Below, piece after piece: positions 8,947 through 46,349 of a stretch of 64,000 nt of DNA. The translations under genes and the position numbers were made by a program. The notes below the pieces were generated by a model, which did not search any database, had not been told where the DNA came from, and saw only the letters and a list, made by a program, of their open reading frames with translations. Within the stretch, counting starts at the first letter, position 1, and every line of letters starts with the position of its first letter. Source of the DNA: Odiellus spinosus (taxonomy: Eukaryota; Arthropoda; Arachnida; Opiliones; Phalangiidae); assembly GCA_963920705.1 (NCBI GenBank), contig OY987225.1, positions 28,829,538 through 28,893,537 of the forward strand. Direction: 5' to 3'.

Positions 8947-8954
8947 ACTTTTGG

Positions 8955-9244: not shown

Positions 9245-9252
9245 ACTTTTGG

Positions 9253-9780
9253 TTACTATATTTCTTTTAATTTTAGCCTTGATTATAGCTTTTCAAGTGC
9301 TCTTTAGAATTTTGTTATTTCGTGTGTACAACAGCGCGTGTCGTGAATACTTTACGAAGCCAAAGGCGGCAAGTCTTTTGATTGGTCGGAGATCTTCAAT
9401 TTTAAATTAAAGTTAAATCTGAATCTTTAACAATTTTTAACATAATTCAAAGACTTTTCCCGAATTTTTTAATAATAGAGCGATTAAGTTTTAGTTTTAG
9501 AAGTAGAATTGATAAAAAAAACCATCCTCTCTTGAATAAAACAAAAGAAAAATGGATCAAAATATTCTAATTTCGCTTTAAGCAATCCTTAAAATTTTAA
9601 TAACTTTAACGCTATCCTATAAAAACTATTAAATTTTAATTTTCGTATTAATTTTTTTGAATATTTATTCAAATTACAGCGAGGAAGTTACAGTTATCGG
9701 CAAACAGGTAGCTAAAGAGACGGTCTATAACCTAATTTTAGACACTTATTAATTCTACATATATTAAAAAAATTATAATC
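9253..9780. other. intergenic with a short dispersed repeat
   Basis: The stretch around 9330-9400 (GCGTGTCGTG, GAAGCCAAAGG, GTCTTTTGATTGG) resembles 53585-53650, a low-copy dispersed repeat. No gene seen. Confidence 0.4.
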
Positions 9781-9959
9781 TTAAAAAAAACCACGCCCAC
9801 TCATATGTCCTTGCTTTGATTGGTCGAAATTTAAATTTTTTTGGAACCGAGGTGATCCGGCCCTTCAATTTAAAATGAAGAGAAAACGGGTAAGAAAATT
9901 GCACAAAATCTTTCCCAGGTAAGTTAAATCTTTATACGAAATAAAAAGGGGTTAAGGCA

Positions 9960-9970
9960 TCCTTGGGCAA
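9960..9970 (+). promoter_or_regulatory. CP3 upstream motif TCCTTGGGCAA
   Basis: Same motif and preceding purine-rich GGGGTTAAGG as in the CP2 upstream region. Regulatory role inferred. Confidence 0.45.
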
Positions 9971-10263
9971 CACTATTTGATAGTCAAAATTAGTTTAGAG
10001 TTTACAATACGTATAAGGCTAGGTTTTTAATCTCTCTATCTTTAAATTTACATGATTTGAATCACGAATTACGAACTAAAAAAAATTGACCATTTTTTTT
10101 TACGCTTTTACTATACGAGAAAACGATGGGGATATTGGGTGTATATTATATTTGATCATCGAAATAAGGGCGGGTCAATATCATACGATTTTGCAGTATT
10201 ATAGGGCTTATGAAATTAACTTTAAAATACATTTAAGGTCAAAACTGATGGCCTTTTTCTGAG

Positions 10264-10311
10264 TATAAAAGGAGACGGAGATTCGGTGAAAAATCAGATT
10301 CAGATTCTCCA
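10264..10311 (+). promoter_or_regulatory. CP3 core promoter
   Basis: TATAAAAG at 10264-10271 followed by AATCAGATTCAGATTCTCC, almost identical to the CP2 promoter. Confidence 0.78.
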
Positions 10312-10335
10312 CTGAAACTAAAACCAACTTTCATC

Positions 10336-11082
10336 ATGAACGCTTTTGTGAGTCTCTCATTTGGATATTAACTTAAGTTCTTCAGATATAAAGTCAATAA
10401 TATGTAGCCCAATTTTAAAAGTACTTAACTTAGTTTCTAGCAAGAATTTTAACGACATTCGCAAAGATTTAATTGGTTGATTAGAAAAGTGTTTTATAGT
10501 TAACCGAGGACTTGAAAATAGCAAAAGACTAGTCAGCTTTGTGGATGATTATTCCCGACCATATTTTACTGAGTACCAAGTTACCAGCTTAAATTACTTC
10601 ATTACTAAATTTCTACCACGACTAGTTCTTAAAAATTAAGTGAGGGTTTGAATCACTTAGTAATTCTTCTATCTTCTTTGTAGGCTGCCGTACTTTCCCT
10701 TGCCCTCGTGGCTTACGCCCACGCTGGAGTCGTCGCCGGCCCAACCGTCCTTTCCGCCGGAGTCATTGGCGCTCCATTAGGTGGTGTTGTCGCCGCCCCA
10801 AGTGTCTACGGTGCTGGAATCGTTGCCGCCCCAAGTGTCTACGGTGCCGGAATCGTTGCCGCTCCAGGAGTTATCGGTGGTGTGTACGGAGCTCCTCTCG
10901 GAGTCCGAAGCGTCATCGGAGGACCAATCGTCGGAGGTGTTTCTCCACTCGGTCTCCGATCCGTCGTCGCTCACCCAGGTGTTGTTGGCGGCGTTGTCGC
11001 TCCTGGTGTTGTTGCCGGCCCAACCCTCCTCTCCGCTGGTGTCCCAGTCGGGGGTGTCGGTGTTAAGAGCATTTACGGTTAA
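10336..11082 (+). CDS. CP3: low-complexity cuticular-type secreted protein
   Basis: Exons 10336-10347 and 10684-11082 (donor GTGAGT, acceptor TTTGTAG, phase 0) predict 136 residues. It starts MNAF and continues AAVLSLALVAYAHA as the signal peptide. The mature chain is VYGAGIVAAPS-type repeats followed by LGVRSVIGGPIVGGVSPLGL, and ends GVGVKSIYG. Relative to CP2 it has an extra AHPGVVGGVVAPGVV segment near the C-terminus and lacks a short segment near the N-terminus, so the paralogues differ mainly by repeat-unit gain and loss. Likely an extracellular cuticle component. Confidence 0.88.
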
Positions 11083-11260
11083 ATAATGTTCCCAATGTAA
11101 GCAAAATCAGTAACTTCAACGAGACATTGGGATTGGTTGTATTTGAAAACCAATTTTTATTGTTAACTTCTTTTTTCCAGAAATCTAACTGACATCTAGT
11201 TACAATTCGGCTCCTGCTCCGTATTGTTAATATAAATTTTGTTACAAAAGTTATGGAAAC

Positions 11261-11266
11261 AATAAA
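11261..11266 (+). terminator. CP3 polyadenylation signal
   Basis: AATAAA in the same GGAAACAATAAA context as in CP2, about 180 bp after the stop. Confidence 0.65.
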
Positions 11267-11299
11267 ATATAAATTATTGGATGAATTTTAAATAGTGCC

Positions 11300-12440
11300 G
11301 TTTTCAATTTTATTACAATAAGAATTCCTACAAAATTGTTCACAATTGAAGCTTTTAACGTTTCCTAGACGTTTAGCTTCAAACGTCATAATTTACATAA
11401 TTTTTCATCTTGCAATTATCCTTAAGCTATTTCATGGTCCTCTATTAGTCTTACTTGGTTTGAATTACCAAGTGTTTCAAAGCCTCACTTAATTAAAACA
11501 GAAAACTTAAAATGGTCACTAGTGCGTCAAGTAATCTTGCAATCGAGTTGTTTATTAGGTGATTTTTAACAGATTAAAACTATGAAAATGTATGCTAAAA
11601 TGGAAGTTCTTGAAAAACGTAACTTGTCGTTTTTAGCAAAAGGGAAAGAATGGGTATAAACACAAGAAAATAATCCTTCAAATTTATAACACGACATACT
11701 GCGAGTTCGATTTTCTCAGTCCATGGTTATGTATATTCTTTCTAGAGTAAATGAGAGTCGAAATCGCGACGGCCAGGCGAGACACGCTCCTTCGTTTCGC
11801 GAGAGAGAGGCCCCCCCACACATTTTCACCGCATGTAAACGTCTAGAAAGTTCGGTGCAATATTAGCACCTCCTACTTAGTTCTAATTTTGAATTCAGTA
11901 TACCGACCGTTTAGAGTTTTTGCAAAAACAGTTATTTTTTTTTTTTTAAAAAATTTATTTAGGGTTTAGCGCGGAAAAAGGCTAAATTGGCTTAATAAAT
12001 ACGCTTCGAACCGTCTTCAAAGCGACAAGGCGGTGTTCATAGTCTAATTTATATCATAATTGTTTCTGCAATCGTAGTGAAGAGCTGGGTACTTTGTGAT
12101 AGACACCAGTGATATTTAAAGTCTGGATAAATAAAAAAAAATGAAATAAAAAATAATTCTAAGGAGTTCGTATACGTTTCAAATCCTCGTAGACGATTAA
12201 AATAGTTTTTGAAAACTGGTCTGTAACTAACGGTATGGTCTTCTAGACACCGCGGGGCGTGTCGAACTAATTTTCCTTTACAAAGATTAATCCTATTGGA
12301 TAAGCAGTACACAACAAAACCCGGTGACAAATTATGAAAATTAATAATATCATATCGAGAAATATAATTGGGCGAGATGCAATTAACGAAAGAGTTTTAT
12401 AAACTATAATAATTAATTTTATATAACTTAAAAACCAAGA
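11300..12440. other. intergenic, no gene supported
   Basis: Contains a GC-rich patch near 11755-11830 with several CG dinucleotides and a poly-T run near 11935. An open minus-strand frame at 12049-12330 has no recognisable domain. Nothing could be assigned. Confidence 0.4.
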
Positions 12441-12449
12441 CAGGCTAAG

Positions 12450-12497
12450 GGATCCTTGAATTATAGGTTCAGACTACTTTTTACAGATGGGTGGGGA
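12450..12497 (+). promoter_or_regulatory. conserved upstream module of CP4
   Basis: GGATCCTTGAA near 12450 and ATGGGTGGGGA at 12487-12497, the same pair as upstream of CP5 and close to that of CP1. Confidence 0.5.
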
Positions 12498-12627
12498 ACT
12501 TTAAAATTTGATTGCTAAGTTTACCAAACAAGAATACATACACCTATTGATATACTAACAAAAACAAAAATTATTTATATAAAAATATTCTTAATAATAT
12601 TAAGGTCATACCCCATCTAATTTTTAG

Positions 12628-12675
12628 TATAAAAGGGTCTGTCAGATTCCAGACAAATCAGATTCAGCCCAACTA
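12628..12675 (+). promoter_or_regulatory. CP4 core promoter
   Basis: TATAAAAG at 12628-12635, then AATCAGATTCAGCCC, the shared initiator block. Confidence 0.75.
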
Positions 12676-12705
12676 CTGAAGCCATCCCAAAACCTTCTAT
12701 TCAAC

Positions 12706-13536
12706 ATGAACTCCTTCGTGAGTATATATTATGAACAATATATTGTACTTGTACCAACTGGATAAGTGAAATAGAACGAGAGCTCTGCATACCCACTTTG
12801 ATATCTAGACAGTAATTGTGTGACTAAGTACCCCATGCAGTAGCGGAGATTTTTTCACGTGTTCAATGAATTTTTAGTACCATGGATTGTTATTTGATTA
12901 AAACTTGAGCTAAAAGAAAAAAAGGTCTCATGGCAACGGAGATGCAAAATTGTGAGCTAGAATTGGTTCTTAAATAAAAGTTTTTAATATTCTACAAGAG
13001 ACCCTTCCGATTAGTTTAAGTTTTCATTAATATCTACCATGTATTTGAGAGTTTAAAGTTACTGGTTATATATTCCATTTTTATTTTATTTAAAGATTGC
13101 CGTTATTGCCCTCGCCGTGGTGGCTTGCGCCCACGCTGGAGTCATTGGAGCCCCCGGTTTATTGGGAGCCTCAGGGCTTATTGGAGCTCCAGGACTTTTG
13201 GCTACTAATGGTCTAATTGGAGCCCGCACTCTCATCGGAGCCCCTGGTATTATCGGTGCGCCTGGTCTCTTGGCCGCCCCAGGACTATTAGCCACCCAAG
13301 GACTCTTAGCCACCCAAGGACTCGCCGGTCTCACCCTCGGCGCCCCAGCTGGTCTCTTGGCCGCTCCAGGACTAGCCACTTCCGGTTTGATCGCCTCTCC
13401 TCTCGGTCTTAAAACTCTTGGAACTGGTCTTCTTGGGGGCCCACTCGGAACTGGTCTTCTTGGGAACCCACTCGGAACTGGTCTTCTTGGGAACCCACTC
13501 GGTCTCGGTCTTACTGGTACCAAGATCATTGGTTAA
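12706..13536 (+). CDS. CP4: low-complexity cuticular-type secreted protein
   Basis: Exons 12706-12717 and 13096-13536 join in phase 0 (GTGAGT...TTTAAAG) and predict 150 residues. Exon 1 encodes MNSF; the signal peptide continues IAVIALAVVACAHA. The mature chain repeats GAPGLLGASGLIGAPGLLA-type units, then LATQGLLATQGLAG, and ends in three near-identical LGTGLLGNPLG units before GLTGTKIIG. It lacks the GVKSIYG ending of its neighbours but keeps the same gene architecture and promoter. The composition (Gly, Leu, Ala, Pro) suggests a structural extracellular protein. Confidence 0.87.
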
Positions 13537-13720
13537 ATAATTAAAAATGTATGGATATTGCTTGAAATATCAAGTACAATTTGGATTCTAATTTGTCTAA
13601 CCATTTCGAATTTGGTTTCTCTTTTTAGATAGAATTTCCGTCCGCTATAGATACACTGGACTAAAAATCTTTTACTTCAATTCGAAATCAATCTGTTGTT
13701 AATATTTTCTATTATGAAAT

Positions 13721-13726
13721 AATAAA
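13721..13726 (+). terminator. CP4 polyadenylation signal
   Basis: AATAAA about 185 bp after the CP4 stop, in an AT-rich 3' UTR. Confidence 0.6.
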
Positions 13727-13814
13727 ATAAATTATTTTATCATCTCAATATATTGTTTTACGTTTTTGACTAAATATATAATATTTGGATCTCGCTATAA
13801 ATTCCTATACCATT

Positions 13815-14197
13815 TTAACGGAGAATGCAACCTAGAAACAAGCGATTTTTTATCGATTCCTTATCGTTTAAATAGACCTAATCCAACAGTGAAAAAATTT
13901 TAAAACGTATATTAAACTAGAAATAAATTTAAATCTTACCATCAAAATAGGCTTAGCTGGATTTATGGAGATCACCTCAACTCCCCATATGAGGACTGGC
14001 AACCAGTGACATTGATATAGGGCTCTTAAATGGGGAATGCAGGATCTAGCTAAGCCCAATTTGTTGGTAAGTTTTAAATTTATTTCTAGTTCAATATTTG
14101 TTTGTAAATTAGTTTACTGTTGGATTAGGACTATTTAAACGATAAGGAATCGATAAATAAAAAAATAACTTTTTGTCAAGTTGCATTCTCCCTTTAA
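13815..14197. mobile_element. TTAA foldback MITE, copy A2
   Basis: Left end TTAACGGAGAATGCAACCTAG, right end TTGCATTCTCCCTTTAA. The subterminal CGATTCCTTATCGTTTAAAT is mirrored by ATTTAAACGATAAGGAATCG. Inner GGCTTAGCTGG and CTAGCTAAGCC arms form a long foldback. No coding capacity. Confidence 0.85.
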
Positions 14198-14230
14198 CCC
14201 AAAAATTTTAACTACAATTTTAAGATTTAA

Positions 14231-14552
14231 AGGGAGAATGAAAGGCCGAAACAACCTATTTTTAATCGATTAAGAATGCTAAAATAATGAGAAAAGCAAT
14301 AATATAACTTTTTATTTTTAAAAATACGCGTACTCGCTCGTGATTGGCGACAAGAAGAGCCGCGAATATTAAAAAAATACAGGTCGTGCTAGCCTAGTTC
14401 TCCAAGCTAGTCAGCCTAGGCTTAGCATCGGAACTTTGGAAATTGATTATGAAATAACGAAATATTTTTGGTGAGTTATATTATTGTTTTTCTCATTATT
14501 TTAGCATTCTTAATCGATTAAAAATATGTTGTTTTGGCCTTTCATTATTACT
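14231..14552. mobile_element. TTAA MITE of a second, related family
   Basis: TTAA at 14227-14230 and 14553-14556 flanks inverted repeats beginning AGGGAGAATGAAAGGCCGAA. The arms extend through TTTTTAATCGATTAAGAATG and GCTAAAATAATGAG. The first ten bases match the A family, but the interior differs. It lies just after copy A2. Confidence 0.8.
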
Positions 14553-14559
14553 TTAAACC

Positions 14560-15215
14560 AAAGCATATAATTCCTATTAGCTAAGTACCGTAAAAGATTT
14601 CAATTCGTCTTATAAATGATTCAAATTGATCTATTTTATCGAAATATTCAACGGTATCTAGTTTTTCATATTTCTTAATAACTGTATTATAAAACTGTCA
14701 AAAAGAAAAATAATTTCACCCAATTATACCTATCAGTTTGAAGGTCGTAGAAAATTGGTAACCATTTAAGAGAAAACTGGATATTACCGGTTAAAACTGG
14801 GATCCCGTTTCAATCGCCAGACAATTTTGGTTTTATTTAGGGCGTGAACCGAACTTTCGAAGGTCCACTACTTTAAATCTTGATTAAATAGGATTGAAAA
14901 AAAGTAGTAAGAAGAATTTTCGGGGTTAATAATACGGAGTTCCACCCAAAATGGCGACAAGAATTACTCACACAATTATATCTGCTATACTAGATTTCAT
15001 TTTAAAGTGATTATGTTACAGATTTCATTTGGTCTACTCTATTTTGTCGAATTATATTGAAATTTTCATATTCGGAACATATCTGACCGAATTATAAGAT
15101 TTTTCCTCATTGGGAAAAATCGATTTCTTTCGCTATTCTATGGGAGTACATTGAAATGAAAAGTAAAACCGACGTCACGCGTACGTAAAAACATTGCGTA
15201 AGAATTAAAGTACAC
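14560..15215. other. intergenic, no gene seen
   Basis: AT-rich sequence with no recognised gene or repeat. Confidence 0.4.
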
Positions 15216-15219
15216 GTTC

Positions 15220-15870
15220 CCTAGATTATTTTAAGATAATAGAACTATGCCTCGCCACTGATTGAAATCGTGCCCAAGTCCCAAATATGACACCTATCAG
15301 AAGCCGATGAAACCCTCCTTTGAAGTCTACTACTCTAATGTTCCATATAGCGCTCCTCTCTGTATGGGTAAAATTGACAATTTTACGAGATCGGAGGGGT
15401 CCTACTTCATACCCCCCCTGTCTACGGAAAATTGGAAATTCTCTCTCTCCACAAACGACGACGTTTTTTTGACGAACTCCAAGGCTGCTAGAGATATTCG
15501 GTGGACGAACTCCCGCTCCGAAAATATCTACCGTTAGGAGGCGTACGAATCGCTCTTTTTGAAACTAACCCATACAGAGAGGGGTAGACAAGACCCGGGA
15601 GTAATAGACTTCAAAGGAGGGTTTCATCGGCTTCTGCACCTATCTTAAAATGGTCGTAAACCGATTGCACCATTAGAAAGTAGACATTCCTTAGATTATT
15701 TTAAGATAATAAAATCCTGCCTCGCCACTGATTGAAATCAAGGCAAAGTCCGAAATATGACCCCTATCTTAAAATGGCCGTAACTTTTCTCTACTATCAC
15801 CTAGGCATAAACCGATTGCACCATTAGAAAGTAGACATTCCTTGCCTAGCCACTCGAAAAAGATGCCTCG
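15220..15870. repeat. imperfect direct repeats interrupted by MITE M3
   Basis: The string CCTCGCCACTGATTGAAATC occurs near 15251 and 15720, with a partial copy near 15866. ACCGATTGCACCATTAG followed by AAAGTAGACATTCCTT occurs near 15660 and 15812. M3 is inserted inside the first unit. Confidence 0.75.
15298..15636 (+). mobile_element. CAGAAGCCG MITE, copy M3 (7-bp TSD)
   Basis: Same family and orientation as M1. The target duplication CACCTAT lies at 15291-15297 and 15637-15643. It interrupts the local direct repeat, so it is younger than that repeat. Confidence 0.92.
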
Positions 15871-16445
15871 CCACTGATTTGCCATAATCAGATTTCCGAT
15901 TTACTGTTCAATCCAGAGACACTTCCTAAATGTTTTACTAGGAAAACATCATTAAACTTGTCTTATAATTAGAAGAACAATAAATAATAATGAAAACTTC
16001 ATTTTCCTCTTCATAATCCCTTTAGAAAAAAGTTTATATAAATTTAAAGCCTTTTTTGACATAAAAAAATCAAAATTATTTTTAAAACTATAAGCTTTCG
16101 GGGTGTGGTATTCCGTAATCAGCTTATTATTAGCCTTAATTTCTAATATTTTAGAAACGTTTTATAGAAATCACGTGATAACCACGATCCTAGTCCCACC
16201 TAGTCGATGTGCAATCAGAAACATGCTGAAATTTCATCACGAATAAAGCTAATCTACGCTAATCTAATCCAATTTTTAAAAATAAGAATTTACGACAGTG
16301 CTAACAATTCCGAGTGGGTCAATCTTGCAAAGAAAATACATTTTCATACCGTGATAATCGAGGTGACGACTTTCACCTTTCAAAATGAATACCAGATGAA
16401 TATCTCTCTCTTAAATTTAGGTAAAACTGCTTAAAAAGGGGTTAA
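15870..16445. other. intergenic, no gene supported
   Basis: An open plus-strand frame at 16207-16434 has no signal peptide, no known domain and no splice context. Treated as non-coding. Confidence 0.4.
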
Positions 16446-16447
16446 AG

Positions 16448-16479
16448 GATCCTTGAAAGTTTTTCTATATGGGTGGAGA
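16448..16479 (+). promoter_or_regulatory. conserved upstream module of CP5
   Basis: GGATCCTTGAA (near 16448) and ATGGGTGGAGA (16469-16479), preceded by AAAAAGGGGTTAAA as in CP2 and CP3. Confidence 0.5.
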
Positions 16480-16610
16480 TTTTCTCTAAGATCTTTTTCT
16501 TTATAATTTTAAGATAATATTACAAGTCTTATGTTCAGAAAAAAATAAATGCAAGAAAAACTATGGGCACTGCACAATTTTTGATTTACAACTAAGGTCG
16601 ACAAATTTGA

Positions 16611-16655
16611 TATAAAAGGAGTCCTAAGTTCGTAAGGAAATTCAGATTCAGTTAT
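16611..16655 (+). promoter_or_regulatory. CP5 core promoter
   Basis: TATAAAAG at 16611-16618, then AATTCAGATTCAG, the shared initiator block. Confidence 0.75.
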
Positions 16656-16685
16656 TCCTCTGAAACTAACCAAACTTTCTTCAAC

Positions 16686-17090
16686 ATGAACTCTTTCGTG
16701 AGTTAATTCCCTTGTTATAAGAAGTTCTGTTCTAACAAAGATTGTCCCAGTAATTAGCTGAATCAATTTTAATAGGTTGCTGTTCTTGCCCTCGCCATGG
16801 TGGCTTACGCCCACGCTGGAGTCATCGCCGGCCCAACTCTATTGTCCGCCCCAGGAATTTATGGCGCCCCAATTGGACTCCGCACCATCGGTGCCCCAAT
16901 TCTTGCCGCTCCAGCCCCAATCATCGCTGGTCCCACTCTTCTTTCCGCCCCAGCTGCTATCGGTGTTAAGAGCATCGCCGCCCCAACACTCTTAGCCGCC
17001 CCAGCTCCAATCATCGCTGGACCAACTCTCCTCTCCGCCCCAGCTGCCATCGGTGTCAAGAGTATTTCCAGCCCAGTTATTTATGGATAA
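16686..17090 (+). CDS. CP5: low-complexity cuticular-type secreted protein
   Basis: Exons 16686-16697 and 16776-17090 flank an intron of only 78 bp (GTGAGT...AATAG); introns of CP1-CP4 are 340-390 bp. The product is 108 residues: MNSF, then VAVLALAMVAYAHA completes the signal peptide. A 24-residue segment beginning AAPAPIIAGPTLLSAP and containing AIGVKSI occurs twice almost exactly. GPTLLSAP and GVKSI tie it to CP1-CP3, and it ends SSPVIYG. It is the shortest of the five left-cluster genes. Confidence 0.88.
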
Positions 17091-33737: not shown

Positions 33738-34727
33738 ATGTTCAAGTCAATAGTAAGTTAATTTTTCACAATATTAAAATTTAAAAAAATATTTTTTTAT
33801 TATTCCCGCGTTCAATAGTTGGTAAAGACTAATTTTCCCCTATGATCGGGTTTATCATATATCTTTTTCCCAATATGCCAACTTCCAACGATTATAATTA
33901 ACCGTGGGTTAACCACTTCCGTGAAATTTGTATGTCTTATTACAGCCCTTGGTTGTTAATGCTAAATAGTCAAATTTAGAGCCTTGTACACCAACCAATT
34001 TAGACATTTGGACTATGCTAAGGAACCAATATTTTAAAATTAACAATGATTCTTTAATGTAATAAATGTGAACAACCATTTTCAGTCAATTTGGGCAGTT
34101 TTGATAGCAGTATCCAACGCAGGATATGCACACAATCCCGGACCTCCCATAATTCAACAAGCACCCCTTCAAGCAGCCCCAGTAATTCAACAAGCGCCCC
34201 TTCAAGCAGCCCCAGTAATTCAACACGTACCGCTTCAAGCTGGCCCCATATTCCAACAAGCTCCGCTTCAAGCTGGACCAATATTTCAACAGGCCCCGCT
34301 TCAAGCTGGTCCCGTATTCCAACAGGCTCCGCTTCAAGCTGGTCCCATATTCCAACAAGCCCCACTTCAAGCTGGACCCATATTCCAACAAGCTCCGCTT
34401 CAAGCTGGTCCCATATTCCAACAAGCTCCGCTTCAAGCTGGTCCCATATTCCAACAAGCCCCACTTCAAGCAGGACCAATATTCCAACAAGCCCCGCTTC
34501 AAGCAGGACCCATATTCCAACAAGCCCCGCTTCAAGCTGGACCCATATTCCAACAAGCTCCGCTTCAAGCTGGACCCGTATTCCAACAAGCCCCGCTTCA
34601 AGCTGGACCAATAATCCAAAGGGTACCGCTTCAAGCCGCGCCTATTGTCCGCGCCGGACCAGCTGTATCAGTGTACAAAGCCAAATCCGCGCTCAGAACG
34701 GTTCGGGGTCACATTAGTAGTAGGTGA
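33738..34727 (+). CDS. CP6: repeat-rich cuticular-type protein, cut by the palindromic element
   Basis: Exon 1 (33738-33752) encodes MFKSI. After a 333-bp intron (GTAAGT...TTTTCAG), exon 2 starts at 34086 and completes the signal peptide (SIWAVLIAVSNAGYA). The mature chain is about fifteen copies of an 11-residue unit, QAPLQAGPIFQ, encoded by a 33-bp tandem repeat (about 34149-34640), then IVRAGPAVSVYKAKSALRTV. At codon HI the palindromic element begins; it supplies three foreign codons and a TGA at 34725-34727, giving 218 residues. The host gene's own C-terminus lies beyond the element at 46272-46349, so this allele is a truncated form. Long open frames in the other phases and on the other strand come from the 33-bp repeat. 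Confidence 0.85.
34149..34640 (+). repeat. 33-bp coding tandem repeat in CP6
   Basis: About 15 units built on CAAGCTGGNCCCATATTCCA plus ACAAGCNCCGCTT, with few substitutions between units. No stop arises in several frames on both strands. Confidence 0.9.
34710..34715 (+). repeat. target site duplication CACATT, left copy
   Basis: The 6-bp direct repeat immediately left of the element; the partner lies at 46266-46271. Polinton/Maverick integrases make 6-bp duplications. Confidence 0.88.
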
Positions 34728-37700
34728 AAGGAGAGTTCACCCGCAGGAGCGGGGGAGCAATATCCGGGCCTATTTAAAAGTGGAATATTTGTAATCTTAT
34801 CTTTTTTTCTTTTTTATCTTAAGTTGTTATCTGGGTTTTTAAGTTTATTTGCTATCTTAATTTTTTATTTTCTATCTTAAGTTGTTATCTGGGCTTTTAA
34901 ATTAGGATATCTTTTTCCTCTTTCTAAATTATTATATATTCATTAACTATTATATTTTTCTTTCTCATAGATAGTTTTAGTTGAATATACGGTTTTCTAA
35001 GGTTTATGCTCTCCTATTTGATCTCCAATGATTTATATACTGCCAGAGGTAGACGGTTTTTCCAAAACGGACAAAATGTTTTTCTCCCGCTTAGAAAGGG
35101 GAACTCCGACCCTTTACAATAGATAAGACCCATTGTAATTGTGGCGTGCGTTCCGACTGTCAGATGTCTTCTTCTTCTCGATATCCCTTGTTCTATGTAG
35201 AGCACCATCTAGTGTTTGAAATCGGTAACTTTCGGCGGAAAAGCAGCCTTAACTATTAGTTTTTCTTTCTCCTAGATAAAAAGCCCTAAATTCAACTAAA
35301 ACTACGTTTTCTGCTCTCATATTTGATCTCTAACGATTTATATCTAGGTTTTCTCTTAAAGTAAAGCCCTTTTACCTAGACCCAGATATGTTCACTATGA
35401 CTCATATTTACTAATGCTTGTATGTTTAACACTAAGATAAGAGACATTATTTTTGAAAATCAAGTATATTTATTTGAAACACAACACCAAACCAGTTACA
35501 CAATATTAGATATTTCAATTGGAACTATATTAAGAAACACTTAAATTAAGACATTAAAAAAATTTGTTAAAACTAGTTTCAATTATCATTGAGGACTATT
35601 TTTAACAGAAAAACTCGTTAAATGGAATATTATCAATACAATGTCATTCTTGTTATCATGGGTATAAAAGTCCGTATTTACACAACTTTGAGTGGAAAAA
35701 ACCTTAAACTAATCGACTTCCATCGCGCTTTCATTAATCTTATAATGTCCATGAGCTAGTGTTGTTATTCCATCCGAAAGTATGTATCTCTTATCATCGG
35801 CAGCTGTCATCCCACACTTATTTTGTTGGATGGTATATAGATCATGGTTATAACTCTGGATTTTTGTCATTTCCACTCTCTTAATTTCCTTCTTAAAAAG
35901 GCAGTCCCGATAGTTCTTGTGGTTTAAAGCATGTTTTACCACACTCTTACTCACACCCTTTGCCCGCTTAGACTCCACGCCTCCTTTAGCGTACGAATAC
36001 AGTTTCGGTCTTAAGGCCACGAGTTCTGAGATAGGTTCACCGAAACTCTCATCTTTCATTTTGCCAAGTTTCTTCTTATTAACCTCACTGTGAAGGAAAT
36101 GGGTCTTGGGCATATCTGAAGTGTCATAATGGTGAGAATGAAGCAGCATATCTTTGTAGATATCATCCGTCTCAATGCAATAGGTTAAAGAGTCGGTGTC
36201 CGTTAATAGCAGCTTAGCTTTATCACCATACTGCACTCTTATTTGGTTGTAGTGAAAGTCATACATGAGGTACTTGCTTAGTTCGAGAATGCAAAAACCA
36301 ACATATATAGGTCGGTTGAGGAGTAGCTTTTTCCGATAGCTACTAACGGCAACTAGATCTTCATTGAACACATTCACAGACTTGAATGATGGAGAGGCCG
36401 CAACCTTGGTCAGGCGCTTTTCGGTATGAATAAGTTCCACATTCGATCGAATCCTCAAATTCTCCATCGTCTTGCCAAACACACTATTATTCATCAACTT
36501 GAAAAACGACTTTTCAAACTCATTATTTGCCAATTTTCTTTGTTCGGTATTGAAGTCGATGTATGACTTCATCCATGGAGATTGACTAAATTCGATCACT
36601 TGATGGATTTTGGTTAGTCGTATTCCTAAAGCTACATAGAGTTGAAGGTTGCGGTAATGTATGACGTAATCTGACTTGTCATTCAAATTGGGCAATAGTT
36701 TTTTGATATTAGGAGAGTGTTTCAGACCTAATGTTTTTAACAACTCCGTAGAGTAAGGTGAAAGCATATCTTCAGTAATATTGACATTTTCAGGAGCTAA
36801 TGGATAATCGCTATGACTGTCATGTAAAGAGGGAGGATACTCTAAATCTACTTTTAAAATGTAACCCTTAGCAGACTGTGAATCAACTTTTAAAAAATCA
36901 AGGCAGCTAATTTCTTCATCACTCAACCAACGAAACCCACCAGTTGGCATGGGTTGGGACATTGCCCAACCGTAGAGATTATTAGCGTCATAATACATAA
37001 TATATGTCTTAGGATCTGTGGGGTTATAATCCTCTAAATAAGGGTTATTTGCCTTGGCATATCGATGAGATATCATCGAGATACCCCCACGAATCCCTTC
37101 TTCGCATAACAAATGCATATCAATATCGGTAAAAAGTTCGAGTTCAACATTCGACTTCTTAAGACAAGCCTGCCAAGCGAGACCGGGAGAAGTTAGAAAA
37201 TATCCACCAGGATCCAATTCATAATGTTTCCTACATACATCCCTAAAATTCTCAAAAACATCAGCTAACAATAAAACGTCCGTTTTATTATATAATTCCT
37301 GATACGCCCCAAGATTTTCAATTTCGAAGCTTTCCCAAATTGACTTGGCAAAGTCATAATCATCTTGAGGGAGAGGTTCACTAGTAAGACTATTATGAAA
37401 AGCCTCTATAGGTGGTAGAGATGTTTCTAAAAACCTATCTTCACAATCTATATAATCATAAGGAAATACTCCTTTCCTGGTTAACAGAGGGACCTTATCC
37501 AGAGGAATGCAAGAAGATAGAAGCTTAAAGTTCTGCAAGCCTGCTTTTGATAAATTATTCACAAGACTGTCTAAGGAACTAGACATAAACTGAAATGAAT
37601 CAATAAATTTATACCCACCTATGGTGAACGAGACATATTTCTCAACATTATTTGCAATGCATAACAACTTTCTATCTTTATACTTCCCAACGCTCGACAT

Positions 37701-40473
37701 TAAAATGTGACTATCATAATTTCTTAAATTGTGAAATACAACAGGGATGGTTTTGGAGGCTTTGAAATTTAAATTGCAAACGTTACAGGCAGGACCACGA
37801 TATATACCAGTCATATGATCATGGTCCCTTACCTTATTTGTCAAATCATTCTTACAAATATGACACATAGTTGCATGTCTAAAGCTCTCCTCCTCCTCTT
37901 CAGATATAATCATAGGTTTGTTGATCCCAACCCTGCCTAAAAGTTCGGCCTCTATCTCCATTAAAGAGTCGAGAAACCTTTCGGAAGCATCACTCCCCCT
38001 ATAGTTAACTGGTCCCTTATAAAGATCTCCATTGTAGTCAACAACGATATAACAGAAGCCTGAAGGGATATGTTTTCCAATTTTAGTAGTGGAGGGGATG
38101 TTAGGATTCGGTTTGCAAACAGATATTTTTGGAATCATGCATTCAAAATCTGCGTATATAATATAGGGAGTTTTAAAGGAATATCGATGGCCCTCAAATT
38201 TCAGTACATTCTCGCCAACTAAAGGCAATGCAATTTTTTGAGCTGCATGTGCATTGCAGTTAATTGAATGCTGTTTAAGAATATCTCCATTACTAAATCT
38301 ATGTAGACATCTTCTACAATAGAACTTCTTGCCATTATGCTTGGTTAATGATCCAAGTAGACGACTCAAACTTCTAATTGAGCAATAATGCTTTTGAAAA
38401 CCATCAGATATAAGAAGCAAATCCACTTCCCTATCCTCTGTCACAATTTTCTCACTTACGAATAGTGGAATCACCTCACTATCTTCATATCCAAAAACAT
38501 TAATTGACAAATTGTTCAACTCCTCAAATCTAGAAACTTGAGAGATCTCCATCGGGAAGGAAAACCCTTTAACGTGAAGTTCATTCAGGAAAGGCTCATA
38601 GCTCGAAACACGATCGCTATCCTTCACTATTTCTTTATGTAGAGAAGCTAGAATACTATAGATAAAACAACGAGAATCCTTGTTTTGAACATTAACAATT
38701 GCTTTCTTAGCCTTTAGAACGCTGGGTAGATCCACATAGCTAGACCCATACAGAGGAGTATACATCAAGATGTTTAAATCTAACCTTTCTATGGTGTCAA
38801 CCACCCAACCACTCCCCATATGAATGAAATTACTACATAGATTTAAAATTTGAGCAAAAGATCGGTCTAACTTAAGATTAACACTATCTTTAGAAGTCAG
38901 AGTTACCCGACAAAACCCGTGAAAAATCGAAGTAGTATATCTATCCCCACAAATATCTGAATCCATGGCTCGTATAAACCTAACAACTACGGCCACATAC
39001 CATTTAACGGCCCTCTTACCTTCCTCCATAACTCTCAAAATTTCACATCTAAGTTTTGGCTTAACTAGTTGAAAAAATTTGCTAAGATCGACAAATTCAC
39101 CCTTTGGACGAAATTTATAGCAACCAACCCGTCCATTAATGGCACTGACATTTTCAAATAGTTCACATACATCTTCCAACTCACTACCTTCATCATACTT
39201 TACGTCAACCTCCGAATCTATATCTAAACTACAACTACCGCAATTATGCGAATCCAAATCAAATTGGGTATCGAAATGCTTCGAGCATTGACTACAAACA
39301 TGTTTAACGATCACACCTAGAGAGAAATAAATGATATAAGCCATCAACTGATTAGAATATTTAAATATTTGAGATACATACCTAATAATCCTTCGTGCGA
39401 AATTCTATGCTTCTTCAAATTAGAAAGTCGTAAAAACGACTTGCTACAAATCTCGCATTTAAAAGCGGGTTTTTCACCATGTTGCTCCTTTTCGTGACGT
39501 TTCAGATTTTTCCGCTGTGAGAATGTTCTATCACAGTTAGTGCATGAAAACATTATAAAATTAACGCAATAGTCAGAGACTTGGAATTTAGATGACTTTA
39601 CTCTTCAAAGATCTGGCGTAGAATGAATTTAAATGCAGCATCATCGATAGATATACCAAGATATAAGGAGGGTGTACTATGAACTGTGATATCAGTCTAT
39701 CATGTTGACTTAGACAATAAGACAAAATACATGTACGAATCGGGAGAATAAAATCGAGATGACTTCACTCTTCAAAGATCAGGCAAACAATAAATTTAAA
39801 TGTGGACCGTCGCTAGACATACACCGAGATAACCAGGACTATATGATAAAATGAATTTACGAGCCAATACTTAAAGCAATCCGAATTTAAATACTAGATC
39901 GTTTAGGGAAAAACATCAGTCTTATCTTATCGATGTTGAAAATTTCAAATACTGCAATAACGGGGAAAATCCTATTTCGTCATTGTAAGTATGGAAAAAC
40001 CCAATTCATGATGTCTTTATCACTAAACTTAAACCAAAGAGGTGGTTTTTCCGAGTAAATATTGCGAAAACGGTATGATTGAACTTGTGGTAAAACCCGA
40101 GTCGACATTGCACAATGGAACTAGAACCTAAGGATCGCCATATTTAGGATAAACACATTAAAAAACCTCCGACAAGAGATATCTCTTATCTATAAACAAG
40201 ATAAACAGGGGAATCCCGCAAATAAAGGGGAAAACCCCAATTCGCTAAACTTAAACCAAAGAGGTGGTTTTTCCAGGAAAATATCAAATATTAGGATAAA
40301 AAGAGAGGAGAAATTCACAGATAAGCTCATTTCTCGACACTTTGCAGCCTGTCTTATCTTAATCGTAGATAAACACTTGAAAAAACCTCTGATAAGAGAT
40401 ATCTATTATCTATAAACAAGATAAAAAGGGCAATCCAAATTAATTTAAAAAAAGGGGGAGGAGGGGGTCGTCC
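34716..40473 (-). repeat. left arm of the palindrome
   Basis: 5.76-kb inverted copy of 40507-46265. Gene coordinates in the two arms sum to 80,981 throughout, so no net indel lies between the outer ends and the polymerase genes. A single extra A in the right arm's central purine tract is the only difference noticed. Confidence 0.92.
35709..39553 (-). CDS. protein-primed family-B DNA polymerase, left-arm copy
   Basis: Mirror copy of the gene at 41428-45272 with an identical predicted product. Exons are 39553-39382 and 39316-35709, joined by a 65-bp phase-1 intron. See the right-arm entry for domains and motifs. Transcription runs outward, from the palindrome centre towards the left end and into the truncated CP6 gene on the opposite strand. 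That both copies are intact and identical implies a very recent origin or continuing gene conversion between the arms. Confidence 0.9.
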
Positions 40474-40540
40474 GCACCTTTTTGATGCTCGCCTTGGCGA
40501 GCAAAGGGACGACCCCCTCCTTCCCCCTTTTTTTAAATTA
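40441..40540. other. centre of the palindrome with asymmetric loop
   Basis: G-rich and C-rich tracts (GGGGGAGGAGGGGGTCGTCC, mirrored at 40507-40526) enclose a unique loop of about 33 bp (40474-40506). Inside it is an off-centre 8-bp perfect stem TGCTCGCC-TT-GGCGAGCA (40486-40503). This is the only non-symmetric part of the element and resembles a resolved hairpin terminus; that reading is inference. Confidence 0.75.
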
Positions 40541-40559
40541 ATTTGGATTGCCCTTTTTA

Positions 40560-41400
40560 TCTTGTTTATAGATAATAGATATCTCTTATCAGAGGTTTTT
40601 TCAAGTGTTTATCTACGATTAAGATAAGACAGGCTGCAAAGTGTCGAGAAATGAGCTTATCTGTGAATTTCTCCTCTCTTTTTATCCTAATATTTGATAT
40701 TTTCCTGGAAAAACCACCTCTTTGGTTTAAGTTTAGCGAATTGGGGTTTTCCCCTTTATTTGCGGGATTCCCCTGTTTATCTTGTTTATAGATAAGAGAT
40801 ATCTCTTGTCGGAGGTTTTTTAATGTGTTTATCCTAAATATGGCGATCCTTAGGTTCTAGTTCCATTGTGCAATGTCGACTCGGGTTTTACCACAAGTTC
40901 AATCATACCGTTTTCGCAATATTTACTCGGAAAAACCACCTCTTTGGTTTAAGTTTAGTGATAAAGACATCATGAATTGGGTTTTTCCATACTTACAATG
41001 ACGAAATAGGATTTTCCCCGTTATTGCAGTATTTGAAATTTTCAACATCGATAAGATAAGACTGATGTTTTTCCCTAAACGATCTAGTATTTAAATTCGG
41101 ATTGCTTTAAGTATTGGCTCGTAAATTCATTTTATCATATAGTCCTGGTTATCTCGGTGTATGTCTAGCGACGGTCCACATTTAAATTTATTGTTTGCCT
41201 GATCTTTGAAGAGTGAAGTCATCTCGATTTTATTCTCCCGATTCGTACATGTATTTTGTCTTATTGTCTAAGTCAACATGATAGACTGATATCACAGTTC
41301 ATAGTACACCCTCCTTATATCTTGGTATATCTATCGATGATGCTGCATTTAAATTCATTCTACGCCAGATCTTTGAAGAGTAAAGTCATCTAAATTCCAA
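40560..41400 (+). repeat. inner direct repeats upstream of the polymerase
   Basis: GGAAAAACCACCTCTTTGGT is present near 40708 and 40930. A GATAAGAGATATCTCTT-type block lies near 40570 and 40793. A second pair (TTTAAAT..ATCTTTGAAGAGTRAAGTCA) lies near 41180 and 41347. The mirror set occupies 39580-40420 in the left arm. Possible promoter or replication-related repeats; function unknown. Confidence 0.75.
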
Positions 41401-41427
41401 GTCTCTGACTATTGCGTTAATTTTATA

Positions 41428-44400
41428 ATGTTTTCATGCACTAACTGTGATAGAACATTCTCACAGCGGAAAAATCTGAAACGTCACGAAAAGGAGCAAC
41501 ATGGTGAAAAACCCGCTTTTAAATGCGAGATTTGTAGCAAGTCGTTTTTACGACTTTCTAATTTGAAGAAGCATAGAATTTCGCACGAAGGATTATTAGG
41601 TATGTATCTCAAATATTTAAATATTCTAATCAGTTGATGGCTTATATCATTTATTTCTCTCTAGGTGTGATCGTTAAACATGTTTGTAGTCAATGCTCGA
41701 AGCATTTCGATACCCAATTTGATTTGGATTCGCATAATTGCGGTAGTTGTAGTTTAGATATAGATTCGGAGGTTGACGTAAAGTATGATGAAGGTAGTGA
41801 GTTGGAAGATGTATGTGAACTATTTGAAAATGTCAGTGCCATTAATGGACGGGTTGGTTGCTATAAATTTCGTCCAAAGGGTGAATTTGTCGATCTTAGC
41901 AAATTTTTTCAACTAGTTAAGCCAAAACTTAGATGTGAAATTTTGAGAGTTATGGAGGAAGGTAAGAGGGCCGTTAAATGGTATGTGGCCGTAGTTGTTA
42001 GGTTTATACGAGCCATGGATTCAGATATTTGTGGGGATAGATATACTACTTCGATTTTTCACGGGTTTTGTCGGGTAACTCTGACTTCTAAAGATAGTGT
42101 TAATCTTAAGTTAGACCGATCTTTTGCTCAAATTTTAAATCTATGTAGTAATTTCATTCATATGGGGAGTGGTTGGGTGGTTGACACCATAGAAAGGTTA
42201 GATTTAAACATCTTGATGTATACTCCTCTGTATGGGTCTAGCTATGTGGATCTACCCAGCGTTCTAAAGGCTAAGAAAGCAATTGTTAATGTTCAAAACA
42301 AGGATTCTCGTTGTTTTATCTATAGTATTCTAGCTTCTCTACATAAAGAAATAGTGAAGGATAGCGATCGTGTTTCGAGCTATGAGCCTTTCCTGAATGA
42401 ACTTCACGTTAAAGGGTTTTCCTTCCCGATGGAGATCTCTCAAGTTTCTAGATTTGAGGAGTTGAACAATTTGTCAATTAATGTTTTTGGATATGAAGAT
42501 AGTGAGGTGATTCCACTATTCGTAAGTGAGAAAATTGTGACAGAGGATAGGGAAGTGGATTTGCTTCTTATATCTGATGGTTTTCAAAAGCATTATTGCT
42601 CAATTAGAAGTTTGAGTCGTCTACTTGGATCATTAACCAAGCATAATGGCAAGAAGTTCTATTGTAGAAGATGTCTACATAGATTTAGTAATGGAGATAT
42701 TCTTAAACAGCATTCAATTAACTGCAATGCACATGCAGCTCAAAAAATTGCATTGCCTTTAGTTGGCGAGAATGTACTGAAATTTGAGGGCCATCGATAT
42801 TCCTTTAAAACTCCCTATATTATATACGCAGATTTTGAATGCATGATTCCAAAAATATCTGTTTGCAAACCGAATCCTAACATCCCCTCCACTACTAAAA
42901 TTGGAAAACATATCCCTTCAGGCTTCTGTTATATCGTTGTTGACTACAATGGAGATCTTTATAAGGGACCAGTTAACTATAGGGGGAGTGATGCTTCCGA
43001 AAGGTTTCTCGACTCTTTAATGGAGATAGAGGCCGAACTTTTAGGCAGGGTTGGGATCAACAAACCTATGATTATATCTGAAGAGGAGGAGGAGAGCTTT
43101 AGACATGCAACTATGTGTCATATTTGTAAGAATGATTTGACAAATAAGGTAAGGGACCATGATCATATGACTGGTATATATCGTGGTCCTGCCTGTAACG
43201 TTTGCAATTTAAATTTCAAAGCCTCCAAAACCATCCCTGTTGTATTTCACAATTTAAGAAATTATGATAGTCACATTTTAATGTCGAGCGTTGGGAAGTA
43301 TAAAGATAGAAAGTTGTTATGCATTGCAAATAATGTTGAGAAATATGTCTCGTTCACCATAGGTGGGTATAAATTTATTGATTCATTTCAGTTTATGTCT
43401 AGTTCCTTAGACAGTCTTGTGAATAATTTATCAAAAGCAGGCTTGCAGAACTTTAAGCTTCTATCTTCTTGCATTCCTCTGGATAAGGTCCCTCTGTTAA
43501 CCAGGAAAGGAGTATTTCCTTATGATTATATAGATTGTGAAGATAGGTTTTTAGAAACATCTCTACCACCTATAGAGGCTTTTCATAATAGTCTTACTAG
43601 TGAACCTCTCCCTCAAGATGATTATGACTTTGCCAAGTCAATTTGGGAAAGCTTCGAAATTGAAAATCTTGGGGCGTATCAGGAATTATATAATAAAACG
43701 GACGTTTTATTGTTAGCTGATGTTTTTGAGAATTTTAGGGATGTATGTAGGAAACATTATGAATTGGATCCTGGTGGATATTTTCTAACTTCTCCCGGTC
43801 TCGCTTGGCAGGCTTGTCTTAAGAAGTCGAATGTTGAACTCGAACTTTTTACCGATATTGATATGCATTTGTTATGCGAAGAAGGGATTCGTGGGGGTAT
43901 CTCGATGATATCTCATCGATATGCCAAGGCAAATAACCCTTATTTAGAGGATTATAACCCCACAGATCCTAAGACATATATTATGTATTATGACGCTAAT
44001 AATCTCTACGGTTGGGCAATGTCCCAACCCATGCCAACTGGTGGGTTTCGTTGGTTGAGTGATGAAGAAATTAGCTGCCTTGATTTTTTAAAAGTTGATT
44101 CACAGTCTGCTAAGGGTTACATTTTAAAAGTAGATTTAGAGTATCCTCCCTCTTTACATGACAGTCATAGCGATTATCCATTAGCTCCTGAAAATGTCAA
44201 TATTACTGAAGATATGCTTTCACCTTACTCTACGGAGTTGTTAAAAACATTAGGTCTGAAACACTCTCCTAATATCAAAAAACTATTGCCCAATTTGAAT
44301 GACAAGTCAGATTACGTCATACATTACCGCAACCTTCAACTCTATGTAGCTTTAGGAATACGACTAACCAAAATCCATCAAGTGATCGAATTTAGTCAAT

Positions 44401-45272
44401 CTCCATGGATGAAGTCATACATCGACTTCAATACCGAACAAAGAAAATTGGCAAATAATGAGTTTGAAAAGTCGTTTTTCAAGTTGATGAATAATAGTGT
44501 GTTTGGCAAGACGATGGAGAATTTGAGGATTCGATCGAATGTGGAACTTATTCATACCGAAAAGCGCCTGACCAAGGTTGCGGCCTCTCCATCATTCAAG
44601 TCTGTGAATGTGTTCAATGAAGATCTAGTTGCCGTTAGTAGCTATCGGAAAAAGCTACTCCTCAACCGACCTATATATGTTGGTTTTTGCATTCTCGAAC
44701 TAAGCAAGTACCTCATGTATGACTTTCACTACAACCAAATAAGAGTGCAGTATGGTGATAAAGCTAAGCTGCTATTAACGGACACCGACTCTTTAACCTA
44801 TTGCATTGAGACGGATGATATCTACAAAGATATGCTGCTTCATTCTCACCATTATGACACTTCAGATATGCCCAAGACCCATTTCCTTCACAGTGAGGTT
44901 AATAAGAAGAAACTTGGCAAAATGAAAGATGAGAGTTTCGGTGAACCTATCTCAGAACTCGTGGCCTTAAGACCGAAACTGTATTCGTACGCTAAAGGAG
45001 GCGTGGAGTCTAAGCGGGCAAAGGGTGTGAGTAAGAGTGTGGTAAAACATGCTTTAAACCACAAGAACTATCGGGACTGCCTTTTTAAGAAGGAAATTAA
45101 GAGAGTGGAAATGACAAAAATCCAGAGTTATAACCATGATCTATATACCATCCAACAAAATAAGTGTGGGATGACAGCTGCCGATGATAAGAGATACATA
45201 CTTTCGGATGGAATAACAACACTAGCTCATGGACATTATAAGATTAATGAAAGCGCGATGGAAGTCGATTAG
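41428..45272 (+). CDS. protein-primed family-B DNA polymerase, right-arm copy
   Basis: Two open frames overlap at TGATG but are better joined by a 65-bp intron (41600-41664; GTATGT...CTCTCTAG, phase 1). This gives exons 41428-41599 and 41665-45272 and 1259 residues. Order: three C2H2-type fingers (about residues 4-25, 33-53, 65-84), another Cys/His finger in the middle, and the 3'-5' exonuclease motifs D447-F-E449, H586-N587...D592 and Y733-x3-D737. An endonuclease VII-like zinc motif (C542-x2-C545, D555-H-D-H558, C568-x2-C571) lies between them. Then polymerase motifs A (D834-ANNLYG), B (K997...NNSVFGK1006), C (D1097-T-D-S) and K1162-L-Y. All catalytic residues are present. The architecture matches polymerases of Polintons and related virus-like elements. 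AATAAA follows at 45507. Confidence 0.92.
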
Positions 45273-45506
45273 TTTAAGGTTTTTTCCACTCAAAGTTGTG
45301 TAAATACGGACTTTTATACCCATGATAACAAGAATGACATTGTATTGATAATATTCCATTTAACGAGTTTTTCTGTTAAAAATAGTCCTCAATGATAATT
45401 GAAACTAGTTTTAACAAATTTTTTTAATGTCTTAATTTAAGTGTTTCTTAATATAGTTCCAATTGAAATATCTAATATTGTGTAACTGGTTTGGTGTTGT
45501 GTTTCA

Positions 45507-45512
45507 AATAAA
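45507..45512 (+). terminator. polymerase polyadenylation signal, right arm
   Basis: AATAAA 235 bp after the stop; mirrored in the left arm near 35469-35474. Confidence 0.6.
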
Positions 45513-46265
45513 TATACTTGATTTTCAAAAATAATGTCTCTTATCTTAGTGTTAAACATACAAGCATTAGTAAATATGAGTCATAGTGAACATATCTGGG
45601 TCTAGGTAAAAGGGCTTTACTTTAAGAGAAAACCTAGATATAAATCGTTAGAGATCAAATATGAGAGCAGAAAACGTAGTTTTAGTTGAATTTAGGGCTT
45701 TTTATCTAGGAGAAAGAAAAACTAATAGTTAAGGCTGCTTTTCCGCCGAAAGTTACCGATTTCAAACACTAGATGGTGCTCTACATAGAACAAGGGATAT
45801 CGAGAAGAAGAAGACATCTGACAGTCGGAACGCACGCCACAATTACAATGGGTCTTATCTATTGTAAAGGGTCGGAGTTCCCCTTTCTAAGCGGGAGAAA
45901 AACATTTTGTCCGTTTTGGAAAAACCGTCTACCTCTGGCAGTATATAAATCATTGGAGATCAAATAGGAGAGCATAAACCTTAGAAAACCGTATATTCAA
46001 CTAAAACTATCTATGAGAAAGAAAAATATAATAGTTAATGAATATATAATAATTTAGAAAGAGGAAAAAGATATCCTAATTTAAAAGCCCAGATAACAAC
46101 TTAAGATAGAAAATAAAAAATTAAGATAGCAAATAAACTTAAAAACCCAGATAACAACTTAAGATAAAAAAGAAAAAAAGATAAGATTACAAATATTCCA
46201 CTTTTAAATAGGCCCGGATATTGCTCCCCCGCTCCTGCGGGTGAACTCTCCTTTCACCTACTACT

Positions 46266-46349
46266 CACATTCAATTGCACCCGCAAAGGTTCGACGGATT
46301 CGTTCCATTGTCAACTTCTTACAAATCCGATAAAGTTTATCTTTTCTAA
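46266..46349 (+). pseudogene. CP6 C-terminal fragment stranded beyond the element
   Basis: Starts with the right-hand CACATT duplication (46266-46271). Read in the CP6 frame it continues QLHPQRFDGFVPLSTSYKSD to a TAA at 46347-46349, 25 codons in all. The intact neighbour CP7 ends in a similar way (VHPGRGPFVPLSYTYRHGIF), supporting this as the authentic CP6 C-terminus. It is separated from its gene by 11.55 kb, so it is translated only in alleles lacking the insertion. Confidence 0.85.

Follow-up and report, generated by a model that had tools for sequence, protein, structure and literature searches.

An 11.5-kb palindromic, polymerase-only mobile element with Polinton-type ends in the genome of Odiellus spinosus

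A 64,000-nucleotide stretch of the Odiellus spinosus genome (contig OY987225.1, positions 28,829,538 to 28,893,537; hereafter the window) contains a mobile element that is an 11,550-bp inverted repeat (window positions 34716-46265). This element is mobile as one entire palindromic unit, bounded by Polinton-type ends and by 6-bp target-site duplications (TSDs), and its palindromic state is inherited, as two families of copies share the same kind of asymmetric centre. The sole gene found in it is that of an adintovirus/Polinton-type, phi29-like DNA polymerase. We regard the element as probably a palindromic, polymerase-only derivative of the Polintons or adintoviruses that is integrated in trans and replicated through a snap-back hairpin.

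The left arm (34716-40467) and the right arm (40514-46265) are complementary at every one of their 5,752 nt (100%, 0 differences); beyond them, a 1-bp indel is followed by approximately 20 further paired bases, which extend to 40473 on the left. Mirror coordinates of the two arms sum to 80,981. The element begins with AGTAGT (34716-34721), ends with ACTACT (46260-46265), and is flanked on either side by CACATT (34710-34715 and 46266-46271), a 6-bp TSD. No mirrored match was found between the 300-bp flanks of this copy. Within the window, the terminal 20-mer (up to 3 mismatches) occurs at these two ends only, and it had zero occurrences in 100 shuffles. The arms and ends are laid out as follows.

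34710-34715, unstranded: left TSD, CACATT (from the sequence)
34716-40467, + strand: left arm, 5,752 nt, 100% identical to the right arm
34716-34865, + strand: outer end, AGTAGTAGGTGAAAGG..., proposed replication origin and integrase site (putative role)
40514-46265, - strand: right arm (from self-alignment)
46116-46265, - strand: mirror of the left outer end, ...ACTACT
46266-46271, unstranded: right TSD, CACATT (from the sequence)

The genome assembly searched for further copies comprises 443 Mb in 286 contigs, and all counts from the genome searches are lower bounds. A 1,785-bp arm query returned at least 84 rows (from the best 40 of 178 candidates), with mirrored pairs at many loci. Arms and flanks were taken from 12 further palindromes belonging to two families (n = 13 with the window copy). 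These copies lie on ten contigs; all 13 have a perfect 6-bp TSD, each different, and different immediate flanks (13/13). In an exact genome search, the terminal 16-mer was found at 28 sites, 26 of which form 13 convergent pairs, the other two being lone ends (C8:5501783 and C137:503865); a reversed control of the 16-mer had 0 sites in the genome. A third family is represented by a 10.7-kb palindrome (C8:2842618-2853345) with arms 97.9% identical over 4.3 kb and a broken PolB frame, inserted in a 23-bp satellite with the TSD GTGAAT. Altogether, the genome contains at least 14 polymerase palindromes in three related families, all 14 with a 6-bp TSD. Loci with a PolB at least 72% identical to the query number 16 (from the best 38 of 660 candidates), 14 of which are the palindromes; C3:187494 has a broken PolB frame, with one arm found, and C2:2278528 is considered below.

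The copies of families 1 and 2 differ in preservation. PolB is open in both arms of nine of the 13, in one arm of three, and in neither arm of one. Insertions are present in C72 and C17, and approximately 360 bp near the centre of C72 are missing as well. C137 (C137:537920-547316) has lost its centre along with inner sequence of one arm and contains a small inverted filler, as expected for a decaying palindrome.

Each arm contains an uninterrupted polymerase open reading frame (ORF) of 1,212 aa (35709-39347 on the - strand and 41634-45272 on the + strand) that runs from the centre outwards, the long exon of the left arm ending at 35709. Judging from the sequence, an upstream zinc-finger exon probably makes this a putative two-exon gene in each arm.

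35709-39316, - strand: PolB exon 2, with an endonuclease-VII-like insert (part of ORF 35709-39347)
39317-39381, - strand: putative intron, 65 bp, GTATGT...CTCTAG (splice sites read from the sequence)
39382-39553, - strand: putative exon 1, two C2H2 zinc fingers (from the sequence)
41428-41599, + strand: mirror of putative exon 1 (39382-39553)
41665-45272, + strand: mirror of PolB exon 2 (within ORF 41634-45272)

Residues 330-1212 of the polymerase had at least 7,990 matches in a very large protein set. The 120 matches listed share 43-56% identity with the query and are mostly unnamed, the named ones coming from lacewing, spiders, molluscs, corals and anemones. Two adintovirus polymerases, from the Parasteatoda house spider (P0080) and the coral Corynactis (P0116), are 50% and 48% identical, respectively, each over 99% of the searched region. 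In a 32-row alignment, the site residues of what we take to be the exonuclease and polymerase motifs sit in invariant or nearly invariant columns. A structure model of residues 380-1212 has a mean pLDDT of 90; its first fold match in the PDB is phi29 DNA polymerase with its terminal protein (E = 1.1e-16), and ranks 1-9 are all phi29 entries. A sequence search of the PDB gave one chance-level match (E = 0.94). The polymerase is thus modelled with a phi29 polymerase fold, and protein priming is predicted for it. No Pfam match to an OTU-like domain was obtained at the PolB N-terminus, which lies outside the modelled residues. The open frame at C2:2278528 (L037 4996-8955) carries zinc fingers and polymerase in one exon.

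Other than the two PolB frames, stop-free stretches lying wholly inside the element do not exceed 96 aa, and no integrase, ATPase or capsid frame was found there in this frame scan, which strongly intron-split genes would escape. Relatives of the polymerase were also sought in IMG/VR, where a single-protein scan found none and an alignment scan found one 17.4-kb contig (L001) with 41% identity. By eye, the frames of L001 resemble a conventional element, and no inverted arms were found in the 15.5 kb of it examined. Its ATPase-like frame had no match in the Odiellus genome, a negative that says little because an Adeno_IVa2-like frame is present in the C4 element described below.

An earlier note on the window, made from the sequence, had claimed a near-perfect palindrome with AGTAGT/ACTACT ends and a 6-bp duplication, an intact polymerase gene in both arms, and a single transposed unit. 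The perfect arms, the uninterrupted ORFs and the different TSDs of the 13 copies bear this out, and the copies with the same ends for which it proposed to search the genome are there, as 13 convergent pairs. Its suggestion of a polymerase-only element is also right for the element itself.

The centre of the palindrome is asymmetric.

40454-40473, unstranded: G-rich stem, left of centre (from the sequence)
40474-40506, unstranded: asymmetric 33-nt unpaired apex with the mini-hairpin GCTCGCC-TT-GGCGAGC, proposed hairpin loop
40507-40527, unstranded: C-rich stem, right of centre, one base longer than the left stem (from the sequence)

The centres of families 1 and 2 have the same layout, consisting of an A-run, a G-rich stem and an asymmetric loop (CTTTTT-ATGCTC-GCC-GGCGA-CA). 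The centre was read in 11 copies of these families (four of family 1 and seven of family 2), every one of which has the asymmetric apex; the centres of C72 and C137 are altered by deletions. The family-1 apex alone folds better than shuffles.

The arms evolve in concert, remaining near-identical within a copy while copies and families diverge. In ten well-aligned copies, arm mismatches within a copy number 0-7, with 7 in C5c, 6 in C274 and 3 in C5a. Variable sites were counted in four copies of family 1 (8 arms; ungapped sites of the first 5,720 bp) and in six copies of family 2 (12 arms); C72, C137 and C17, which contain insertions or deletions, were excluded, and their arms are 99.6%, 99.3% and 99.7% identical, respectively, in the aligned parts. 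Among the 13 variable sites of family 1, 9 separate copies with both arms agreeing, and 4 represent one arm of one copy. Of the 26 in family 2, 18 distinguish copies whose two arms carry the same base; at 14 sites, the arms of at least one copy disagree, and 8 of those 14 vary in no other way. When arms were paired at random in 20,000 trials, mismatches were as few as in the true pairing in 2.9% of trials for family 1 and in 0.4% for family 2. C14 and C5b, which lie on different contigs and have different TSDs, show 0 differences within or between them over the first 5,800 bp. At three sites, C5c has derived bases in its left arm only, and the copy C12 (17.43 Mb) has those bases in both arms; near the centre, this C12 copy keeps the same two arm-specific bases as C5c. 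From this mosaic, homogenisation seems to proceed tract-wise and can stop short of the centre.

Between families 1 and 2, PolB is 88.5% identical at the amino acid level, with a dS of 0.51 and a dN/dS of 0.11 (simple counting method), and approximately 12% of coding positions differ; on these sequence counts, the polymerase has evidently been under purifying selection. Identity between the families (aligned columns) is 82% in the first 50 bp, 73% in the next 100 bp, 88% in the gene, and 74-79% in the last 150 bp before the apex, the other non-coding parts of the arms being near unalignable (45-60%). Independently evolving arms would differ as much as the families do. As they do not, the palindrome would, most simply, predate the split between the two families, its arms having been rewritten from each other.

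A mechanism can be proposed that unites these features. The polymerase would start at the identical, protein-primed ends and displace one strand. The displaced 11.5-kb strand would snap back into a 5.76-kb hairpin, the blunt end of which would rebuild a double-stranded origin and the loop of which would be the 33-nt apex. Copying of the hairpin through the apex would restore the palindromic duplex, and repair or resynthesis in the stem would make one arm a copy of the other. A Polinton-type integrase from relatives elsewhere in the genome would insert the ends in trans, a step proposed because the ends and the 6-bp duplication are Polinton-type. This hairpin model would explain why the ends are the same, why one gene is enough, why the arms are concerted, why the apex is both kept and asymmetric, and why the neighbourhood of the loop may escape correction. 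In the more degraded copies, the arms have diverged from each other, an argument for symmetry at birth. A snap-back event in a conventional ancestor is the probable origin of the architecture itself. The inverted dimer through a hairpin that the earlier note had suggested stands in part: a dimer origin is likely, but it would be old and inherited, given families at a dS of 0.51, and hairpin replication is a step that we infer.

Other palindromes and possible helpers are present in the same genome. A distant polymerase (43-55% identity in pieces) lies in a 14.1-kb palindrome (C12:8005092-8019209) with arms 99.4-99.9% identical, ends AGTAGATATAAAAGG and the TSD TGTATC; its gene orientation is opposite to that of family 1, and a G-rich stem and asymmetric centre are found again. 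Two further distant PolB loci lie at C5:2259619 and C2:28651579. A 15.9-kb palindrome (C4:1518381-1534306; arms 98.5-99.8% identical, TSD GCTATT) contains an ATPase-like frame (Adeno_IVa2, E = 9.4e-5), minor- and major-capsid-like frames, and an integrase-like frame followed by a chromodomain, and its centre falls inside a truncated PolB. The frame resembling a major capsid protein (MCP) has 108 protein matches, including F54H12.2-like proteins of Planococcus citri (39-40%), presumably the usual label of Polinton capsid proteins; Pfam gave no match for this frame. In its own genome, it returned at least 122 rows, mostly single, with 40 rows at 97-100% over at least 336 of 340 residues. These near-identical sequences indicate a recent large expansion of an adintovirus-like element with the C4-type capsid gene.

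Seven mirrored MCP pairs within 7 kb were found, on C4, C15, C1, C13, C14, C16 and C3, of which C4 alone was read in sequence. The further pairs are located at C15:2932845/2935372, C1:12527601/12529677, C13:19327795/19333963, C14:19571258/19573055, C16:3826925/3828883 and C3:232865/239604. Snap-back dimers of either genome half, with a PolB half in the 14.1-kb C12 palindrome and a capsid/integrase half in that on C4, seem to have arisen several times. The genome search for integrase-like frames returned at least 129 rows (22-32% identity), 7 of which fall in frames longer than 1,200 aa that bear a closer resemblance to retroelements. Candidate integrase donors in trans thus exist in this genome.

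Several observations weigh against the hairpin account. Hairpin replication is proposed from integrated copies, and no terminal protein was identified. The integrase-like frame of the C4 palindrome is broken by one TGA in both arms, and the outer ends of the families share only AGTAGTAGG with the C4 element. Taken by itself, the family-2 apex shows no folding advantage over shuffled sequences (55 of 200 were as good), and automatic alignment of the family 1 and 2 apices (last 34 bases) is poor, at 56%, their likeness being seen by eye; moreover, the centre of family 3 differs, such that the apex is not strictly conserved across the lineage. Permutations of right arms equal the true pairing in 2 of 24 cases for family 1 (13 sites, a weak test) and in 12 of 720 for family 2, where the best random pairing has 12 mismatches versus 16 for the true pairing; such better pairings arise because C5c and C12, and likewise C274, C14 and C5b, share arm types. 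At C2:2278528, one arm was seen in the sequence read, and the PolB frame is open over 1,320 aa; this locus is possibly a non-palindromic relative of the lineage. Finally, host gene conversion in the integrated state could be an alternative source of arm homogenisation.

In that last case, the palindrome would be inherited and its arms kept alike by the host, as in sex-chromosome palindromes, and not by hairpin replication. Arm-to-arm conversion is indeed visible in the comparison of copy C12 (17.43 Mb) with C5c. However, integrated arms drift, as seen in C72, C137, C17 and family 3, and C5c and C274 keep their 7 and 6 differences uncorrected, whereas the mutually identical C14 and C5b are also fully symmetric, which fits symmetry at birth. 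We therefore consider maintenance by host conversion rather doubtful.

Alternatively, each palindrome could be a dead-end snap-back genome that formed separately from a conventional element and integrated once. In support of such formation, snap-back genomes of either half are described for adeno-associated virus (AAV; PMC8235507). Separate formation looks right for the C4 capsid half, with its centre inside a truncated PolB, and perhaps also for the six further mirrored MCP pairs, which may have formed independently as snap-back dimers joined at other positions. In families 1 and 2, by contrast, the same apex recurs in all 11 centres read, and substitutions present in both arms distinguish copies on top of this common apex. 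Furthermore, both PolB frames are uninterrupted in 9 of 13 copies, with the low dN/dS between families given above, and differing junction positions were not seen in the four family-1 copies read. Independent formation of each copy was rejected for families 1 and 2 and kept for C4; as an explanation of the element in the window, it is distinctly improbable.

Fold-back artefacts are a known problem of long reads (PMC12870357), and a fold-back chimeric read that mirrored a single-arm Polinton would yield 100% identical arms, as in the window copy; the flanks of C5a also show low-identity, repeat-like similarity to each other. Such a read, however, would mirror the flank and leave no TSD, whereas each of the 13 copies, which are distributed over ten contigs, has a TSD and flanks of its own. 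Real arm-to-arm differences in C5c, C274 and C5a and the same asymmetric centre in independent copies likewise contradict an artefact of assembly or library, which was rejected on these grounds and which we hold to be extremely unlikely. The chimeric read or single-arm locus that the earlier note had raised against its own proposal is very unlikely given the many independent copies. A host-domesticated polymerase palindrome spread by segmental duplication, for which the open PolB frames of many copies might speak, is scarcely credible at all, as duplication would carry flanks and is refuted by the separate TSDs and different flanks of 13 of 13 copies.

The snap-back Polinton derivative that we favour can be compared with several known systems. 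The Foldback-type transposons Galileo and Tetris have very long inverted repeats that form much of the element, as here. The genes that these repeats enclose are those of other transposase families; in the present palindrome, however, the gene lies inside the repeat and encodes a polymerase. AAV uses Rep and hairpin inverted terminal repeats, not a protein-primed polymerase. Its snap-back genomes, described as self-complementary left (rep) and right (capsid) halves that can replicate with helper functions (PMC8235507), are the nearest functional likeness; the present element is likewise self-complementary as a whole molecule, with one loop. There, they are subgenomic particles, whereas here, integrated families have been kept for a long time.

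Vertebrate Mavericks have (AGT)2//(ACT)2 ends, a 6-bp TSD and a protein-primed-type family-B polymerase, together with terminal repeats of 46-1,447 bp and integrase and capsid genes (PMC8097293). The present element is like Polintons/Mavericks in its AGT-repeat ends, its 6-bp TSD (13/13 copies) and its protein-primed-type PolB, by sequence and modelled fold. Unlike them, it has no retroviral-type integrase, packaging ATPase or capsid frame that was found, and its repeat is the whole element (5.76 kb), with no unique core, two polymerase copies and a palindromic centre. Adintoviruses are defined by PolB and Hexon and also encode an integrase with a chromodomain (PMC11071296). The PolB described here is of the adintovirus class (50% and 48% identity), and integrase-like, chromodomain, ATPase and MCP frames of such elements occur elsewhere in the same genome; however, PolB is alone in the element, in which no Hexon or integrase-chromodomain gene was found. 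By that definition, the element is not an adintovirus, although its polymerase is of that class. Bidnaviruses are small viruses that took Polinton PolB and terminal repeats, the latter reportedly not forming hairpins; they differ in their parvovirus-derived genes, and a palindromic genome is not described in the excerpted text (PMC4061559). No palindromic Polinton was found among the titles and abstract openings listed in the literature searches, Repbase and subscription journals lying outside the search.

More speculatively, the palindromes might constitute a self-sustaining transposon class of permanent snap-back genomes, with one origin, one polymerase, a conserved apex, and a second arm rewritten in each cycle. 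Together with the capsid/integrase palindrome and the numerous further capsid-bearing copies of this genome, they would then form a split system, its palindromic polymerase elements and its capsid/integrase elements exploiting or complementing each other. We offer this broader view tentatively.

A long perfect palindrome would be expected to be unstable in a chromosome. Here, an 11.5-kb palindrome is the heritable form of a mobile element and is young-looking in several places. To the best of our knowledge, Polinton replication has never been seen directly; these copies make it testable and form a natural record of what a eukaryotic, phi29-like polymerase may do with the strand that it displaces. 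They also link transposons with snap-back defective viral genomes, and suggest a possible route by which a virus may break into gene-poor, polymerase-only elements. In addition, they are a caution that some palindromes in long-read assemblies may be real and could be lost to artefact filters.

Some smaller features of the arms were also recorded. A 69-bp repeat (90%) with AGATAA-type motifs occurs near the centre (40148-40216 and 40368-40436). The GATA-like AGATAA motif exceeds the maximum of 200 mononucleotide shuffles in three of the four non-coding arm parts of families 1 and 2, and does not exceed that maximum in the fourth. The outer non-coding arm contains a repeat that has at least 8 dispersed copies, at 83-88% identity, outside the element families.

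35042-35252, unstranded: dispersed repeat of approximately 210 bp in the outer non-coding arm (from the genome search)

Elsewhere in the window (3654-16852), five stretches that are related to one another, GC-rich and exon-like each open with a secretory signal of the LALVAYAHAG type and by eye form a cuticle-like paralogue cluster; one of them had no homologue in the protein set searched. Tandem 33-bp coding-like units (QQAPLQAGPIF) occupy 34146-34619, ending approximately 100 bp to the left of the insertion site; the insertion may lie within or next to such a host gene.

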